Of a stretch of 44,841 nucleotides of DNA, positions 2,294-41,126 are shown piece after piece. Source of the stretch: Methylococcaceae bacterium (GTDB lineage Bacteria > Pseudomonadota > Gammaproteobacteria > Methylococcales > Methylomonadaceae); assembly GCA_900299045.1 (NCBI GenBank), contig OMIH01000079.1, positions 1-44,841 on the forward strand. Direction: 5' to 3'. The notes under the pieces are model-generated. The model saw only the letters and a list, made by a program, of their open reading frames with translations, made no database searches and was not told the origin of the DNA. The position numbers were made by a program, and so were the translations under genes. Position 1 is the first letter of the stretch. Each line of letters begins with the position of its first letter.

Positions 2294-3313
2294 AACGGTT
2301 TCACTTGAACTTTCACAGTGGCTGACAGACCAGATTTTAATAATGAGGTGTCCACGGATTCATCAAATACAATTTTGACGGGTACACGACGCACAATTTT
2401 GGTGAAGTTACCGGTTGCGTTTTCGGGCGGAAGCAGACTAAATTCAGAGCCGCTCGCCGGTGAAAAGCTATCGACTTTACCCGTGAGTATGGTATCGGGA
2501 TAGGCATCGACATAAATTTTTACCGGTTGCCCGATTTTCATGTGCGTTAATTGTGTTTCTTTAAAATTCGCTTCAATCCATATTGGATTTTGAATGATTA
2601 AATGCGCTAAGTTCATGTCTTTTCTGGCAAGTTGCCCTAATTGAATCCCTCGATGTCCGATAACACCATCTGCTGGCGCGAGAATGTGTGTGTACTCCAC
2701 ATCAAGTTGCGCGAGATCCAGTTGCGCCTGTGCTTGTTTAATACGCGCGAGGGCTTGGGCAATGTTACTGTCAAAACTCGTTAATTGTTTTTGCTGAACT
2801 TCGACGGCAGCTTGCGAACCACGCAGTTCTGCACTGGTCTGTTGTGCTTCTGATTCCAACTTATCAAGTGTTTGACGGGGCGCACTACCTTTTTCAATGA
2901 GGGCGCTAAAACGTGCGACATCTTGGTTAATTTGTCGTTTTTTAGCTTCAATTGCTAACACTGCCGCATCGGCATTATGAATAGACGATTGCTGTGTATT
3001 TTTATTTGCACGCAAAAAATCACTGTACGCTTGCGCTTCTATTACTCGTGCCTGCGCTTGCATTAACTTCGCTTGATAATCCCGATCATCAATGACAGCA
3101 AGCACATCGCCTTTTTTGACTAGTTGATTATCCTCTATGTTGAGTTGCGTAATATAGCCCTCTACACGCGAACTAATAAGCACACTATTGCTTTTTAAAT
3201 ACGCATTGTCTGTGCTTTCGTAATGTTGACGCTCATGCAGCCATGAAAATACTTCCCAACCCGCACCTGAAAGTAAAACAACGAAAATAGAATATGTAAA
3301 AAAACGCGTCATA
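2290..3313 (-). CDS. emrA: HlyD/EmrA-type periplasmic adaptor of efflux pump
   Basis: The protein has a single N-terminal membrane helix (about residues 5-25), a split biotinyl/lipoyl domain (NVLISSRVEGYI-like opening and the later YTHILAPADGVIGHRG), an Ala/Gln-rich coiled-coil between about residues 75 and 195, and a beta-barrel segment with PVKIYVDAYP. This is the membrane-fusion architecture of EmrA/HlyD, linking the EmrB permease to an outer-membrane channel. I chose the ATG at 3313 because the membrane anchor starts there; an in-frame TTG at 3333 would add seven residues and cannot be excluded. It is the first gene of the two-gene operon and diverges from lipB. Confidence 0.9.
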
Positions 3314-3482
3314 GAGCCTGCTGTCAATGTCAAAGTAGATAAACGTCATTTTAACCGAATTCAATACAAAAATAAGGCGGAATTTCACATGATAAAACAA
3401 CGAATTTGCATCAAAAATAACGTACAATTTCGCTTTAGGTACTATTTTGAAACCGATTTTTATGTAAGAAGGGAAATTAAAG

Positions 3483-4079
3483 GTGATTATTAACGCTTTG
3501 TCGCTTACACCTTATGAGAAGGTGTGGCGTGATATGCAGTATTTTACGCAGACGCGTGCGCCCGATACGCCCGATGAAATTTGGCTGACAGAGCATTTTC
3601 CCGTCTATACGCTTGGTTTAAACGGCAAGCGTGAGCATTTGCTAAACACAGGCGATATTCTTGTTGTGCAAACAGACAGAGGTGGGCAGGTCACCTATCA
3701 CGCACCAGGACAGGCGATTGTGTATTTTTTGCTTGATTTAAAACGATTAAAAATCAATAGTCAGCAAATCGTGACACTGCTTGAAAACGCGATGATTCAA
3801 ACACTTGCCAATTACGGTATTCACGCTAATGCACAAGCAGATGCAAGAGGGGTTTATGTTCAAAATAAAAAAATTGGGTCAATTGGACTGCGTATTAAAC
3901 AAAATGGCTGTTATCATGGTATCAGTTTAAATAATCAGTTAGATTTAACACCGTTTACGTTTATCAATCCTTGCGGCTACGCTAATTTACAAATGACTCA
4001 ACTGGCTGATTTTGATGTTTTTTTGCCAACACAAACCATTTGCGAGCACATTGCCGACCATTTCATTAAGATATTATGA
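3483..4079 (+). CDS. lipB: Octanoyl-[ACP]:protein N-octanoyltransferase LipB
   Basis: LipB moves octanoate from acyl carrier protein to the lipoyl domains of 2-oxoacid dehydrogenases and the glycine cleavage system, the first step of lipoate assembly. The 198-residue protein carries the family signature [12 protein letters not shown] (66-77), the catalytic lysine in [10 protein letters not shown] (K130) and the acyl-binding cysteine in NPCGYANLQ (C164). It starts with GTG; a purine-rich AAGGGAAATTAAAG stretch precedes it. The stop overlaps the ATG of lipA by four bases. In many gammaproteobacteria dacA-ybeD sit immediately upstream; here those genes are at the other end of the window. Confidence 0.96.
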
Positions 4080-5035
4080 CCAATTATCAAGCACCATCGC
4101 GCAGCACGCCACAAACACATCAGCGCAACAGTGAAAAATTAGCACGAATTCCTGTTAAAGTTGAGCAAAAAGACACCACGTTGCGCAAACCCGATTGGAT
4201 ACGCGTTAAGTTATCGGCAGGGCAGGAAATCAACCATGTGAAAAAATTGCTGCGTGAGAGTGGTCTGCATTCTGTTTGCGAGGAGGCGGCATGTCCCAAT
4301 TTGGCAGAATGTTTTCAACACGGTACTGCCACGTTTATGATTATGGGGGATTTATGTACACGTCGCTGTCCTTTTTGCGATGTCGCGCATGGAAAACCTC
4401 AAGCGCTTGATGTACATGAACCGCGTCAACTCGCTGAAGCGGTGCAAAAATTGTCGTTGAAATATGTGGTGATTACGTCTGTGAACCGTGACGATTTGAG
4501 AGACGGTGGCGCGGGACATTTTGCAGCGTGTATTCAAGAAATTCGCCAAATTTCACCCAATACAAAAATTGAAATTCTGGTGCCTGATTTTCGCGGTCGT
4601 GTTGAAAAAGCGTTGACTCTTCTTCGTGAATTTCCGTGCGATGTATTTAATCACAATTTAGAAACAGTGCCGCGTTTATATGCAAAAGCACGTCCAGGCG
4701 CTGATTATGAGGGTTCGCTGGACTTATTTCGTCAATTTAGCCTTGCACTCCCTCATGTTCCAACGAAATCGGGTTTGATGCTGGGTATTGGTGAAACGCC
4801 AGCAGAAGTTGAAAATGTCATGCGTGATTTATTGGCGGTAGGCTGTTCAATGCTCACACTAGGGCAATATCTGCAGCCAAGCAAATCGCATCTCGCCGTA
4901 GAAGAATACGTCACCCCTGAGCAATTTGAGCGTTATGGTGACATTGCAAGAAATTTAGGATTTAAACAAGTAGCAAGTGCACCGATGGTTCGCTCCTCCT
5001 ATCATGCGGATTTGCAAGCGAAATCATTACTTTAA
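4076..5035 (+). CDS. lipA: Lipoyl synthase LipA (radical SAM)
   Basis: LipA inserts two sulfur atoms into protein-bound octanoyl chains. Both iron-sulfur sites are visible: the auxiliary cluster motif [12 protein letters not shown] (C68, C73, C79) and the radical-SAM motif CTRRCPFC (C94, C98, C101). The C-terminal RSSYHA around residues 306-311 supplies the serine that ligates the auxiliary cluster in this family. The length of 319 residues is normal. It is translationally coupled to lipB through an ATGA overlap, and its last four bases overlap the end of the converging tusC gene, leaving no room for a separate terminator. Confidence 0.97.
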
Positions 5036-5391
5036 CCCGAAAACACCCGATCAAATTGCGATATAAATGCTGTGATGTCATCACGCGCTATTTTCTGTAC
5101 AGGTAACGTCAACATATCAGCCCCTAGACCACGTTCAATAAGTGACTGGCTTTCCACAAAAATAGCGTGAACGTCCATGGTTGGAAGAAGAGAAAAGAGT
5201 GTAGCTGTGTTTTTGTAAGCGCTATTAAATGCATTTTGGTGATTTTTTAAATGAAAAACAGCATCATCTAACAGTAAAATTGTCACATTTTGTTCAAAAG
5301 CGGCTGTGGTTAAAATAATATCAAGCATTTCTTGGACATAAAGCCCACTATAGCTTGGTTTACGTAGCACAAATAAGAATGTTTTCATCAT
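5032..5391 (-). CDS. tusC: TusC/DsrF-like sulfur relay protein
   Basis: This 119-residue protein matches the length of TusC and reads as a DsrE-superfamily fold: it opens [20 protein letters not shown] and has a central LDDAVFHL strand-helix segment. TusC is the non-catalytic partner in the TusBCD hexamer, which passes persulfide sulfur to TusE/TusA for 2-thiouridine formation in tRNA; in sulfur oxidisers the related DsrEFH works with DsrC. It lies 16 bp downstream of tusD. The expected third subunit TusB/DsrH would follow, but lipA converges directly on the stop codon. A DsrF assignment is an equally possible name. Confidence 0.82.
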
Positions 5392-5407
5392 AGTAAGAGT
5401 TGCTCAA

Positions 5408-5764
5408 TTAACCAAATACTAAGAAACGATCAGCAAGCAGCGTTGCTTCAAGTAATTGCCCAAGTCCACCTAATCGAAAACCTTGGGCAACATTTTCTTC
5501 CAGTAATCCCCGTCGCTGTGCGGCAGAAATGCACACGACTAAATCTATATTATGTTGCTGTGCTAGCGTTTGCCATGCGCTAAAAATCGAAAATTCATCA
5601 TCGGGGGGCATCGCACTTTTCATCGCATGATAAATGCCGTCATGATAAAAAAAGACGCGAAATATCTCATGCCCTTGGGTAATCACTTCAAAAGCAAAAC
5701 GGTATGCGCTAAAACTGGTAGACGAATGATAGGGACTGGCGTTAATTTGCAGTGCAAATTTCAT
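5408..5764 (-). CDS. tusD: TusD/DsrE-like sulfurtransferase
   Basis: This is a 118-residue DsrE-family protein opening MKFALQINASPY, with EIFRVFFYHDG (33-43) and the active-site cysteine at residue 78 in VVCISAAQRRG, the same number as the persulfide cysteine of TusD. I chose the ATG at 5764, not an upstream in-frame start at 5791, because AAGGA lies about 10 bp before it and homology begins there. It heads the tusD-tusC pair just after a terminator that closes the neighbouring heme-protein gene, so its promoter must lie in or beside that hairpin. The role is persulfide relay for tRNA thiolation or sulfur oxidation. Confidence 0.87.
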   Translation of the reverse strand: MKFALQINASPYHSSTSFSAYRFAFEVITQGHEIFRVFFYHDGIYHAMKSAMPPDDEFSIFSAWQTLAQQHNIDLVVCISAAQRRGLLEENVAQGFRLGGLGQLLEATLLADRFLVFG

Positions 5765-37962: not shown

Positions 37963-38949
37963 ATGTTTGATTCAACCGCAACCCAAATTCGTCATGATTG
38001 GCAAATTGATGAAGTCTTAGCGTTGTATGCGCTGCCATTTAACGATCTATTATTTAAGGCGCAATCCGTTCATCGTGCAAATTTTAATCCCAATGAAGTG
38101 CAAATTAGCAGTTTATTGAGCATTAAAACAGGATCATGTTCTGAGGATTGTGGTTATTGTCCGCAAAGTGCGCGTTATGATTCGGGTGTAAAATCTGAAG
38201 CACTCATGCCTGTTGATGACGTATTAAAAGCAGCGCAACTGGCTAAATCACAGGGGGCTACCCGTTTTTGCATGGGAGCGGCTTGGCGCAAACCCAAAGA
38301 CAGTGATATTGAGCGCGTGGTTGAAATGGTACAAGGCGTTAAATCACTGGGAATGGAAACCTGTGTGACGCTTGGTATGCTAACGGATACACAAACGCTA
38401 CGCCTAAAAGAAGGTGGTCTGGATTATTACAATCATAATCTTGACACGTCCGAAGATTATTATTCAGAGGTGATTACCACGCGTACTTACCAAGATCGTT
38501 TAGACACACTTGAACGTGTACGTGAATCGGGCATTAATGTGTGTTGTGGTGGCATTGTCGGTATGGGGGAAGGGGAGGTGGATCGTGCTAACCTCTTAAT
38601 ACAACTGGCTAATATGCCAAAACATCCCGAAAGTGTTCCTGTGAATATGCTGGTGCAAGTAGAGGGCACGCCACTGATGGGGACAGAGGAGCTTGACCCA
38701 CTTATATTTGTGCGTACGATTGCGGTTGCAAAAATTATGATGCCAAAGTCGCGGATACGTCTATCAGCAGGACGAAACACCATGAGTGATGAAATGCAAG
38801 CGCTCTGTTTTTTTGCTGGCGCTAATTCAATATTTTACGGTGATAAATTACTTACCACCGATAATCCAATGACCAATCACGATTTAGCGTTGTTTGATCG
38901 TTTAGGTTTGAATTCTGCCGGTTCAAGCTATCAAATTGACGCGCATTAA
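37963..38949 (+). CDS. bioB: Biotin synthase BioB (radical SAM)
   Basis: BioB inserts sulfur into dethiobiotin. The 328-residue protein has the radical-SAM motif CSEDCGYC (C59, C63, C66), [10 protein letters not shown] after it, [31 protein letters not shown] and [36 protein letters not shown] in family order. AGGAG at 37948-37952 is well placed before the ATG. No other bio genes adjoin it, so it stands alone. It converges on the GGDEF-like gene; a 12-bp hairpin just past its stop may terminate it. Confidence 0.97.
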
Positions 38950-38962
38950 TCACTAAAAATAA

Positions 38963-39418
38963 CTAATCACTTGTTGTGCTATTAGCTTCTTCATCACTAG
39001 AGAAGAAGCTAATACCAATTTTTGTGCCAATCTTAACATCGTTACTTTGTGATAATTCGTAAGGACGTTTGAGCAATGCTATCAACTCGTTCGCCACGCT
39101 ATCGGCATTATCAGCCGATTGAATATCTTCGAGCAACACCATAAATTTATCGCCCGTCATAGGCAAAATAACATCATTATCACGCAGTCGATGGCGTAGT
39201 CTATGTCCAATTTGTTTTAGCACTTCATCGATATCACTAAAGGAACTCCCATGAATTGCATTAAATTCATCTAAATCCACATCGAGTTCTAATATGGCCG
39301 CTTTTTTCGTGCTTTCTCGACGCTCTAAATTAAACCGATGTTGCACATGAGTATGGGGGCGGGGAGATTCATTATTGAGTACGTCGTCAATTAATAACAG
39401 GTCTTTTTCTTCAGTCAT
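38963..39418 (-). CDS. Degenerate, truncated GGDEF-like protein
   Basis: This 151-residue protein contains the core of a diguanylate-cyclase fold: AILELDVDLDEFNAIHGSSF matches the usual LDxDxFKxxND region, IGHRLRHRLRDNDVILPM the following helix, and TGDKFMVLLE (88-97) sits at the GGDEF strand. TGDKF cannot be a normal active site. The DxLTGLxNR opening and the C-terminal ADxALYxAKxxGRN helix are both missing. It is probably a non-catalytic sensor or scaffold, or a decaying remnant. ATG at 39418 is preferred to a TTG at 39442. It follows the globin gene by 35 bp on the same strand. Confidence 0.75.
   Translation of the reverse strand: MTEEKDLLLIDDVLNNESPRPHTHVQHRFNLERRESTKKAAILELDVDLDEFNAIHGSSFSDIDEVLKQIGHRLRHRLRDNDVILPMTGDKFMVLLEDIQSADNADSVANELIALLKRPYELSQSNDVKIGTKIGISFFSSDEEANSTTSD
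38981..39013 (+). terminator. 12-bp perfect hairpin inside the end of the GGDEF-like gene
   Basis: ATTAGCTTCTTC (38981-38992) and GAAGAAGCTAAT (39002-39013) form a perfect stem with a 9-nt loop. On the plus strand it is followed after five bases by TTTTT, so it could terminate bioB, whose stop is 32 bp upstream. It is at the same time coding sequence for the last 17 codons of the minus-strand gene. Confidence 0.6.
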
Positions 39419-39453
39419 TCTATGCTCATCCTGCGTTGTCAATTATGGAGAAT

Positions 39454-39951
39454 TCACTTACCTAATAGTGCATTACGTCCACTTTCTGCGAGAGCAAGCA
39501 CTTCAGTTATCAGAGAAGCCTCAACATTGAAGAATTGCAAACTATCATTTAAATGGGTAATCATAAGATCATAATGCACATCTTGTGGGATGAATTTTAA
39601 CAAATGACTGTGACTGTCGCACAAATATTTTGAGCTAGGGTTATTCTGTCCAATGATATACCCAAAATATGCAAAGCCTGATTCGGGAAGTCGTTCTTTA
39701 TCTTTAAACCGCGCAAACGCAGCCATAAAAAAGTGTGTCAATAACGCTTTAAATTCGGGGGTGTTAGTGGGATGATTCTCAAAAATAGCCCTAACTAACG
39801 TCTTCAATGTGCTGCGCTGTGTTTTTTTATCGCTATCATTAAAAAAACGACTGACGCGGTAATCATCCGTCATATTTTCATAAAAATGATCGACCATTCT
39901 AGCAACAGATTCTTCTCCGCCTAAGCGGTTATACAAAGTTGAGTGACTCAT
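39454..39951 (-). CDS. Truncated hemoglobin (group 1-like) with an inserted segment
   Basis: This 165-residue protein begins like a TrHbN globin: LYNRLGGEESVARMVDHFYENM with tyrosine 24 at B10, then RFFNDSDKKTQRS with glutamine 45 at E7. The end SHSHLLKF (proximal histidine most likely H114), VHYDLMITHLNDSL and LITEVLALAESGRNALL also fits. Between them are about 40 residues more than in ordinary group-1 globins (roughly 60-108, including FFMAAFARFKDKERLPESG). It probably binds O2 or NO. AGGACG eight bases before the ATG is a good SD. The GGDEF-like gene follows 35 bp downstream. Confidence 0.85.
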   Translation of the reverse strand: MSHSTLYNRLGGEESVARMVDHFYENMTDDYRVSRFFNDSDKKTQRSTLKTLVRAIFENHPTNTPEFKALLTHFFMAAFARFKDKERLPESGFAYFGYIIGQNNPSSKYLCDSHSHLLKFIPQDVHYDLMITHLNDSLQFFNVEASLITEVLALAESGRNALLGK

Positions 39952-40352
39952 TTTACACGTCCTAATTATTATTTTTATTCGAAAATTGAAACGCTGTTTT
40001 TGTATAAAAAATGATTATTAATATAGACATAACCGCTTAATTAATAATTCTTGACTATTTTACTGCAAAATAGCTAAAAACTATAGTAAATATTTATTGC
40101 CTCTTTTTTTACTGCTCAACAAATCATAAACAAAAAAACGTGATCTTAAGGCGAATTTAATAATTGTTAAGTTAAAATCGTTGCAACTTAACAACAAAAG
40201 CTACATTTTTACCATTAAAGTTAAAAATCTTCCTATTTAAAGGGGAAAGATGGTGAAGTTCTTTGATCTGTAATGCAAAATTCAAAGGCACTTCATAATG
40301 TTTAAGCCCGCTACTTTGGCTTAACTTATTGAAACCAACGAAAGACCACTTT
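39952..40352. other. 401-bp noncoding region rich in inverted repeats
   Basis: The left part (39952-40163) is AT-rich, contains the globin promoter and the palindrome CTATTTT-actgc-AAAATAG (40055-40073). The right part holds four consecutive hairpins: TTGTTAAGTT/AACTTAACAA (40164-40194, 10 perfect pairs), ATCTTCC/GGAAAGAT with a bulge (40227-40251), GAAGT-t-CTTTGA/TCAAAG-gc-ACTTC (40255-40294, 11 pairs) and TTAAGCC/GGCTTAA (40302-40324). The first and last hairpins resemble each other in reverse complement, which could mark a MITE-like element; a structured leader of rlpA is the alternative. A minus-strand frame across it looks partly protein-like but has no support. Confidence 0.6.
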
Positions 40353-41126
40353 ATGAAAAAATTGATTCCTATTTTATCACTTGCCATGTTAGGGAGTTGT
40401 GCAAATACCACCGTTGTCAGTACCGCCGTTGACTTGTCCGCAAATGAAATTGATACGGTGCAGTTGCCTAGTGAAAATACGTTGGTGACGGCAAAAAACA
40501 TCACTAAACAAGCAAATGATACCTTTTCAACCCAAAAAGTATCACATTCTATTTCAACTAAAATACGCGGTAGACACGGTGTTGCATCGTGGTATGGTGC
40601 GCAGTTTCACGGAAAAAAAACAGCGACGGGAGAATTGTTTGATATGTACGCAATGACCGCTGCTCACAATAGTCTACCCATTCCCTCTTACGCTCGAATT
40701 ACGAATGTGACTAATCATCGAACAGTTATTGTTCGTGTCAATGATCGAGGTCCTTTCTACGATAACCGCATTTTGGATTTATCCTATTCCGCTGCCAAAC
40801 AATTAGGTATGGATATGGTGGGCACAAGTGAAGTAGCCATTCAAACTATTGAGCCAGAGCAAGCTCTCCTTCAGTTGCAGAAACAAAATCAACCTGTTTA
40901 TCTTCAAATTGGCAGTTTTAACAATAAAAAATTGGCGCAAGATTTAAAAAAGAATATCAGCAGACATCAATTACCCGATGCAAAAATTGCGTCATCTAGT
41001 CATAAAGGCGCAACGCTATATAAAGTGCAGTTGCCTATCGATGCCTCGCACAATGCGAGTGAACTCAGTAATAAATTGGCAAAAATAGGCATAACCGAAA
41101 CACAATTTGTGACAGAAACCAATTAA
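40353..41126 (+). CDS. rlpA: RlpA-like septal ring lipoprotein (DPBB + SPOR)
   Basis: RlpA is an outer-membrane lipoprotein, in some species a lytic transglycosylase that cleaves denuded glycan at the division septum. The 257-residue protein has a lipobox LGSC (cysteine 16), a linker, the double-psi beta-barrel with GVASWYGAQFHGKKTATGE and VRVNDRGPFYDNRILDLS (in family order), and a C-terminal SPOR domain (VYLQIGSFNNKKLAQDL). The ATG at 40353 begins the signal peptide; an upstream TTG is less likely. It lies behind the hairpin-rich region and before dacC, the usual rlpA-dacA order. Confidence 0.93.
   Translation: MKKLIPILSLAMLGSCANTTVVSTAVDLSANEIDTVQLPSENTLVTAKNITKQANDTFSTQKVSHSISTKIRGRHGVASWYGAQFHGKKTATGELFDMYAMTAAHNSLPIPSYARITNVTNHRTVIVRVNDRGPFYDNRILDLSYSAAKQLGMDMVGTSEVAIQTIEPEQALLQLQKQNQPVYLQIGSFNNKKLAQDLKKNISRHQLPDAKIASSSHKGATLYKVQLPIDASHNASELSNKLAKIGITETQFVTETN

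Follow-up and report, generated by a model that had tools for sequence, protein, structure and literature searches.

A lake methanotroph of the family Methylomonadaceae (UBA10906 lineage) carries a gene for an unusual group 1 truncated hemoglobin (TrHb1), with an insertion between helices E and F, and 35 bp downstream of it a gene for a stand-alone truncated GGDEF domain, here called the mini-GGDEF, which to judge from its sequence probably serves as a receptor or adaptor for c-di-GMP and not as a cyclase. Each of the two proteins is a variant of a known protein kind, and each is under purifying selection. That the two form a functional pair is put forward tentatively. The relevant features lie in the window, the whole stretch of 44,841 nucleotides that was analysed, as follows.

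39454..39951, minus strand: group 1 truncated hemoglobin with E-F insertion, 165 aa (Pfam Bac_globin, TrHb1 alignment, PDB profile matches, AlphaFold)
39643..39780, minus strand: globin codons ~58-103, a segment not in ordinary TrHb1; an additional helix is predicted at 65-79
39419..39453, minus strand: 35-bp gap from globin stop to mini-GGDEF start, without a terminator-like site
38963..39418, minus strand: stand-alone truncated GGDEF domain (mini-GGDEF), 151 aa (Pfam GGDEF, alignments, AlphaFold, Foldseek, tree)
37963..38949, plus strand: bioB (biotin synthase), flanking the pair convergently
40329..41126, plus strand: presumed RlpA-like lipoprotein gene, flanking the pair divergently (named from reading the sequence, not from a profile scan)

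The ORF coordinates bear out the two-gene arrangement of the initial annotation, with the globin upstream and the GGDEF fragment 35 bp downstream on a common strand, and both ORFs are intact. Relatives that have the pair show a gap of 34-35 bp, and ATG 39418 is the likely mini-GGDEF start since the orthologues start at about the same residue. No Rfam family was found near the pair, and a search of plasmid records gave no DNA match. FNR-like sites occur at a frequency only slightly above that in shuffled sequence, with none directly upstream of the globin, and no promoter motif common to three upstream regions stood out. The Thiotrichales placement first suggested for this DNA is ruled out, because locus L091, from the same genus as the host, comes from a MAG classed as Methylococcaceae (UBA10906), while named relatives of the globin are nearly all from gammaproteobacterial methanotrophs, the remainder being proteobacterial MAGs; one relative also has a gene which we take, by eye, to encode the formaldehyde-activating enzyme. 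UBA10906 is an uncultured Methylococcales clade of lakes (PMC11192741).

The mini-GGDEF as a candidate receptor

The 151-aa ORF matches the Pfam GGDEF profile (E 1.1e-13) over profile positions 23-138 of 161, and profile, alignments and AlphaFold model all place it without the N-terminal D-x-L-T-x-L-x-N-R stretch and without the final helix; Foldseek matches the model to GGDEF domains. The GGDEF signature reads TGDKF, and an RxxD motif is present as RDND (R79 and D82). All the stand-alone truncated GGDEFs of the genus group in one clade, separate from the full-length GGDEF proteins (support 100/99). Four species contribute both the pair gene and a further copy to this clade, genome G008 contributes one member and G005 a fragment. 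Comparison of 10 mini-GGDEF members with 23 intact GGDEFs of the genus finds the catalytic Glu replaced by Lys in nine of the ten, in keeping with the earlier claim that the cyclase-like part has no active site, and the Arg and Asp of the RxxD (alignment columns R84 and D87) unchanged in every one. Beyond the RxxD just three positions, all hydrophobic, of those invariant in the intact domains are kept in all ten, and most polar A-site residues other than the catalytic Glu are variable. The guanine-contact Asn is kept in seven of the nine members covering the site and the Asp in six (Glu in the remaining three), and so GTP or GDP binding is possible. PleD and PelD have a third I-site Arg; in sequence alignments of the mini-GGDEF and its intact relatives no counterpart is evident in the helix where it would be expected.

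An active diguanylate cyclase has the catalytic Glu in GG(D/E)EF and a complete domain, and the mini-GGDEF has neither; an inactive A-site together with a kept RxxD is the mark of the degenerate receptors, and both features are found here. It is the Glu to Lys change, the missing last helix and the fixed RxxD that make a receptor or adaptor role probable and that uphold, at the level of sequence, the suggestion that the domain is likelier to bind than to synthesise c-di-GMP. The RxxD may instead be kept for structure.

The second mini-GGDEF of the same genome (L002 445-954, on G000:C131) has a His-rich N-terminus, QHLHHHHF, and is kept in four congeners; downstream of it lie a 112-aa gene that matches no Pfam family and genes of HIT type and permease type. 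The G008 member lies near Tat-type genes and the G005 fragment on a contig with replication-type genes. A far-degraded mini-GGDEF retaining the RxxD occurs at L213 (3345-4548) on a probable plasmid-like contig, which contains this segment twice and also a formaldehyde-activating-enzyme-like gene. The names of these neighbours (HIT, permease, Tat and replication types) are presumptive assignments by eye.

The globin and its E-F insertion

The globin ORF scores above the cut-off of Pfam Bac_globin (E 3.6e-7) and, at 12.4 bits, below the cut-off of 25 for Protoglobin, which fits the earlier statement that the two halves are separate genes and that the globin is of the truncated class and not the sensor class. 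Its key residues are Tyr24 at B10, Gln45 at E7, Leu49 at E11 and the proximal His114 at F8; His114 is invariant among the aligned sequences and Tyr24 is present in at least 90% of them. The top structural match of the AlphaFold model is the Chlamydomonas truncated hemoglobin 1dly (Z 14.8, 113 residues, rmsd 2.4), and the Foldseek lists held no family closer than TrHb1 for the globin or GGDEF for its neighbour. Both the 2/2 globin fold and the Bac_globin profile match that characterise group 1 truncated hemoglobins are thus found, and given a predicted TrHb1 fold with proximal His, Tyr B10 and Gln E7 the protein is very likely a heme protein.

The description of this globin as TrHbN-like holds for the truncated class and fails for a plain TrHbN. 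Usual TrHb1 proteins have ~115-125 residues and a short E-F connection, in contrast to the 165 aa here. Alignment with ordinary TrHb1 from this genome and related ones shows ~43 additional residues separating helices E and F, against almost none in the ordinary proteins, and the protein is for this reason labelled a TrHb1 variant. The extra segment covers approximately residues 58-103 and PDB profile matches split around it. The model has the usual helices and the additional helix at 65-79; the end of the insert is left unplaced because the stretch 83-118 has low confidence. Close insert-type relatives occur in 38 of 201 family genomes, while in a class-wide sample of 369 genomes the other matches are split around the insert or one-sided, as expected for ordinary TrHb1, and across these two sets the variant is seen only in Methylomonadaceae. 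ORFs of ~270-300 aa with at least two ordinary TrHb1 matches each (G268:C3, G287:C6, G510:C56 and G520:C98) suggest that tandem truncated hemoglobins exist in other Gammaproteobacteria.

Conservation, neighbours and the case for pairing

A globin orthologue is present in 9 of 18 genus genomes, that of G009 being cut at residue 78, and the mini-GGDEF adjoins it in four of the 18 congeners (G000, G006, G013 and G016), which represent about three lineages of one subclade, G013 and G016 being very close (pS 0.07-0.15). The pair is thus found beyond this one genome, where adjacency in a single genome would have spoken against the original proposal. Among the four, pN/pS is 0.20-0.25 for the globin and about 0.13-0.34 for the mini-GGDEF, and both genes are kept even though synonymous sites approach saturation in wider comparisons. 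However, the window is collinear with the whole 36-kb G016 contig and the whole 11-kb G006 contig, and as the pair is inherited with the whole collinear region its adjacency in relatives is nearly uninformative; the idea that conservation of the adjacency is proof of a functional pair was dropped on this ground. Within the block the globin (72% identity) and the mini-GGDEF (67%) are among the most diverged, most proteins being at 80-95%. In congeners without the pair bioB usually retains its comF-like neighbour, and different genes come after bioB. The closest globin outside the four, that of G014 (69%), has no mini-GGDEF at its locus, and the best GGDEF match there forms one domain within a 583-aa ORF.

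Elsewhere insert-type globins and the other mini-GGDEFs mostly have other, unrelated neighbours. Of 37 insert-globin loci, a count in which some genes appear twice, 4 have a GGDEF ORF no more than 4 kb away; three are this pair and one is a PAS-GGDEF in Methylomonas koyamae. The latter arrangement is thus seen in two Methylomonas genomes (L135 4001-6542, with L189 from the same genome, and L188 ~3020-5566), where a divergent insert-type globin is followed 157 bp downstream, on the same strand, by a PAS-GGDEF with an intact GGEEF. At L096 (3977-5495) and L140 (695-1933) an insert-type globin precedes a Polyketide_cyc2 gene and the gene of a short PAS protein with a LOV-like NCRFLQ motif; a divergent MASE1-CHASE histidine kinase adjoins this set at L096, and the L140 globin, from G009, stops at residue 78. 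At L074 (1498-3263) the insert-type globin adjoins a 2Fe-2S/FAD/NAD-binding reductase, a possible electron donor to it.

Truncation at both ends, a degenerate motif, identities of 67-70% between close species and the far-gone copy in G005 are what one would expect if the mini-GGDEF were the functionless remains of a decaying GGDEF or GGDEF-EAL protein, yet that reading appears very improbable given the pN/pS values, the absence of stop codons in four species, an RxxD unchanged in all members and a paralogue retained at a second locus of the same four genomes. On the strength of the selection test a pseudogene was abandoned as the leading interpretation, and purifying selection also answers the concern that the gene might be a pseudogene in close relatives. 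A working domain might instead bind a protein or another nucleotide, with the RxxD purely structural; the third I-site Arg that is not evident and the frequently kept guanine-contact residues fit this, while the loss of the Glu and the variation of most other polar A-site residues, against which the RxxD pair alone stands fixed, leave it a rather small chance.

A receptor or adaptor for c-di-GMP, the preferred reading, need not work with the globin. Chance neighbours, that is a TrHb1 variant for NO detoxification or low-oxygen O2 handling beside an unrelated receptor, sharing at most a transcript, have a nearly even chance of being the explanation: collinearity spans the whole contig, both families have other neighbours elsewhere, the G014 globin does without a mini-GGDEF, and the reductase beside one insert-type globin fits redox chemistry. 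On the other side stand the constant short gap on the same strand in four of four genomes and the upkeep of both genes over distances at which synonymous sites are near saturation. A functional pair, in which the TrHb1 variant is co-transcribed with a dead GGDEF that bears an I-site, is favoured by that gap with no terminator in it, by the degenerate GGDEF with its fixed RxxD and monophyletic clade, by the TrHb1 fold with its conserved heme-pocket residues, by purifying selection on both genes, by the H-NOX/DGC and PopA precedents and by the Methylomonas genomes, in which the globin family is separately associated with another GGDEF gene, an intact PAS-GGDEF. It is disfavoured by its occurrence in only 4 of 18 congeners, by the collinearity, by the other neighbours, by the lack of an evident third I-site Arg, by the chance that the RxxD is structural and by the divergence of both proteins within the block, and so is held as somewhat doubtful. 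In such a pair both proteins would come from one transcript and the mini-GGDEF would act as a c-di-GMP-responsive receptor or adaptor. More speculatively, the gas state of the globin (O2 or NO) might be relayed via the E-F insert beside the proximal helix, and might be integrated, within a single complex or at a shared target, with the c-di-GMP state of the mini-GGDEF. A full two-protein switch of lake methanotrophs, by which the insert TrHb1 and the dead I-site GGDEF jointly report oxygen/NO and c-di-GMP, seems unlikely, and the single gas-sensing switch of the initial annotation is unsupported so far, given the few congeners, the collinear region and the other neighbours of both families.

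Relation to known systems

The host bacteria must locate low oxygen and methane together, and if the pair cooperates truncated hemoglobins would join the gas sensors tied to c-di-GMP. Even without cooperation the E-F-insert TrHb1 family and the clade of stand-alone, I-site-only GGDEFs offer two small, directly testable proteins. Literature searches, which covered few subscription journals, returned no report of such a pair.

PelD is a degenerate GGDEF receptor of c-di-GMP, with a dead A-site and an RxxD. PopA is another, its degenerate GGDEF binding c-di-GMP via the I-site (PMC5052742), and the mini-GGDEF has in common with these receptors the dead A-site and the kept RxxD. In contrast to PopA and PelD the protein here consists of one trimmed GGDEF core alone, and its c-di-GMP binding is putative. 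Regulation of a GGDEF partner by a separate heme protein is established for H-NOX with DGC (Legionella Hnox1/Lpg1057 and Shewanella woodyi SwH-NOX/SwDGC; PMC8846402), where a stand-alone heme gas sensor likewise goes with a GGDEF protein. H-NOX however is not a globin, its partners are active enzymes and their interaction has been demonstrated, whereas that of the present pair is putative. The globin-coupled sensor diguanylate cyclases (DosC/YddV, DgcO) also combine globin and GGDEF, fusing a globin of the sensor or protoglobin class to the output domain, while here the genes are separate, the globin is a truncated 2/2 globin and the GGDEF is dead. With the group 1 truncated hemoglobins (Chlamydomonas THB1, Tetrahymena, M. 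tuberculosis HbN) the globin shares the 2/2 fold, the proximal His and the B10 Tyr, and differs from them by the ~43 residues inserted between its helices E and F.
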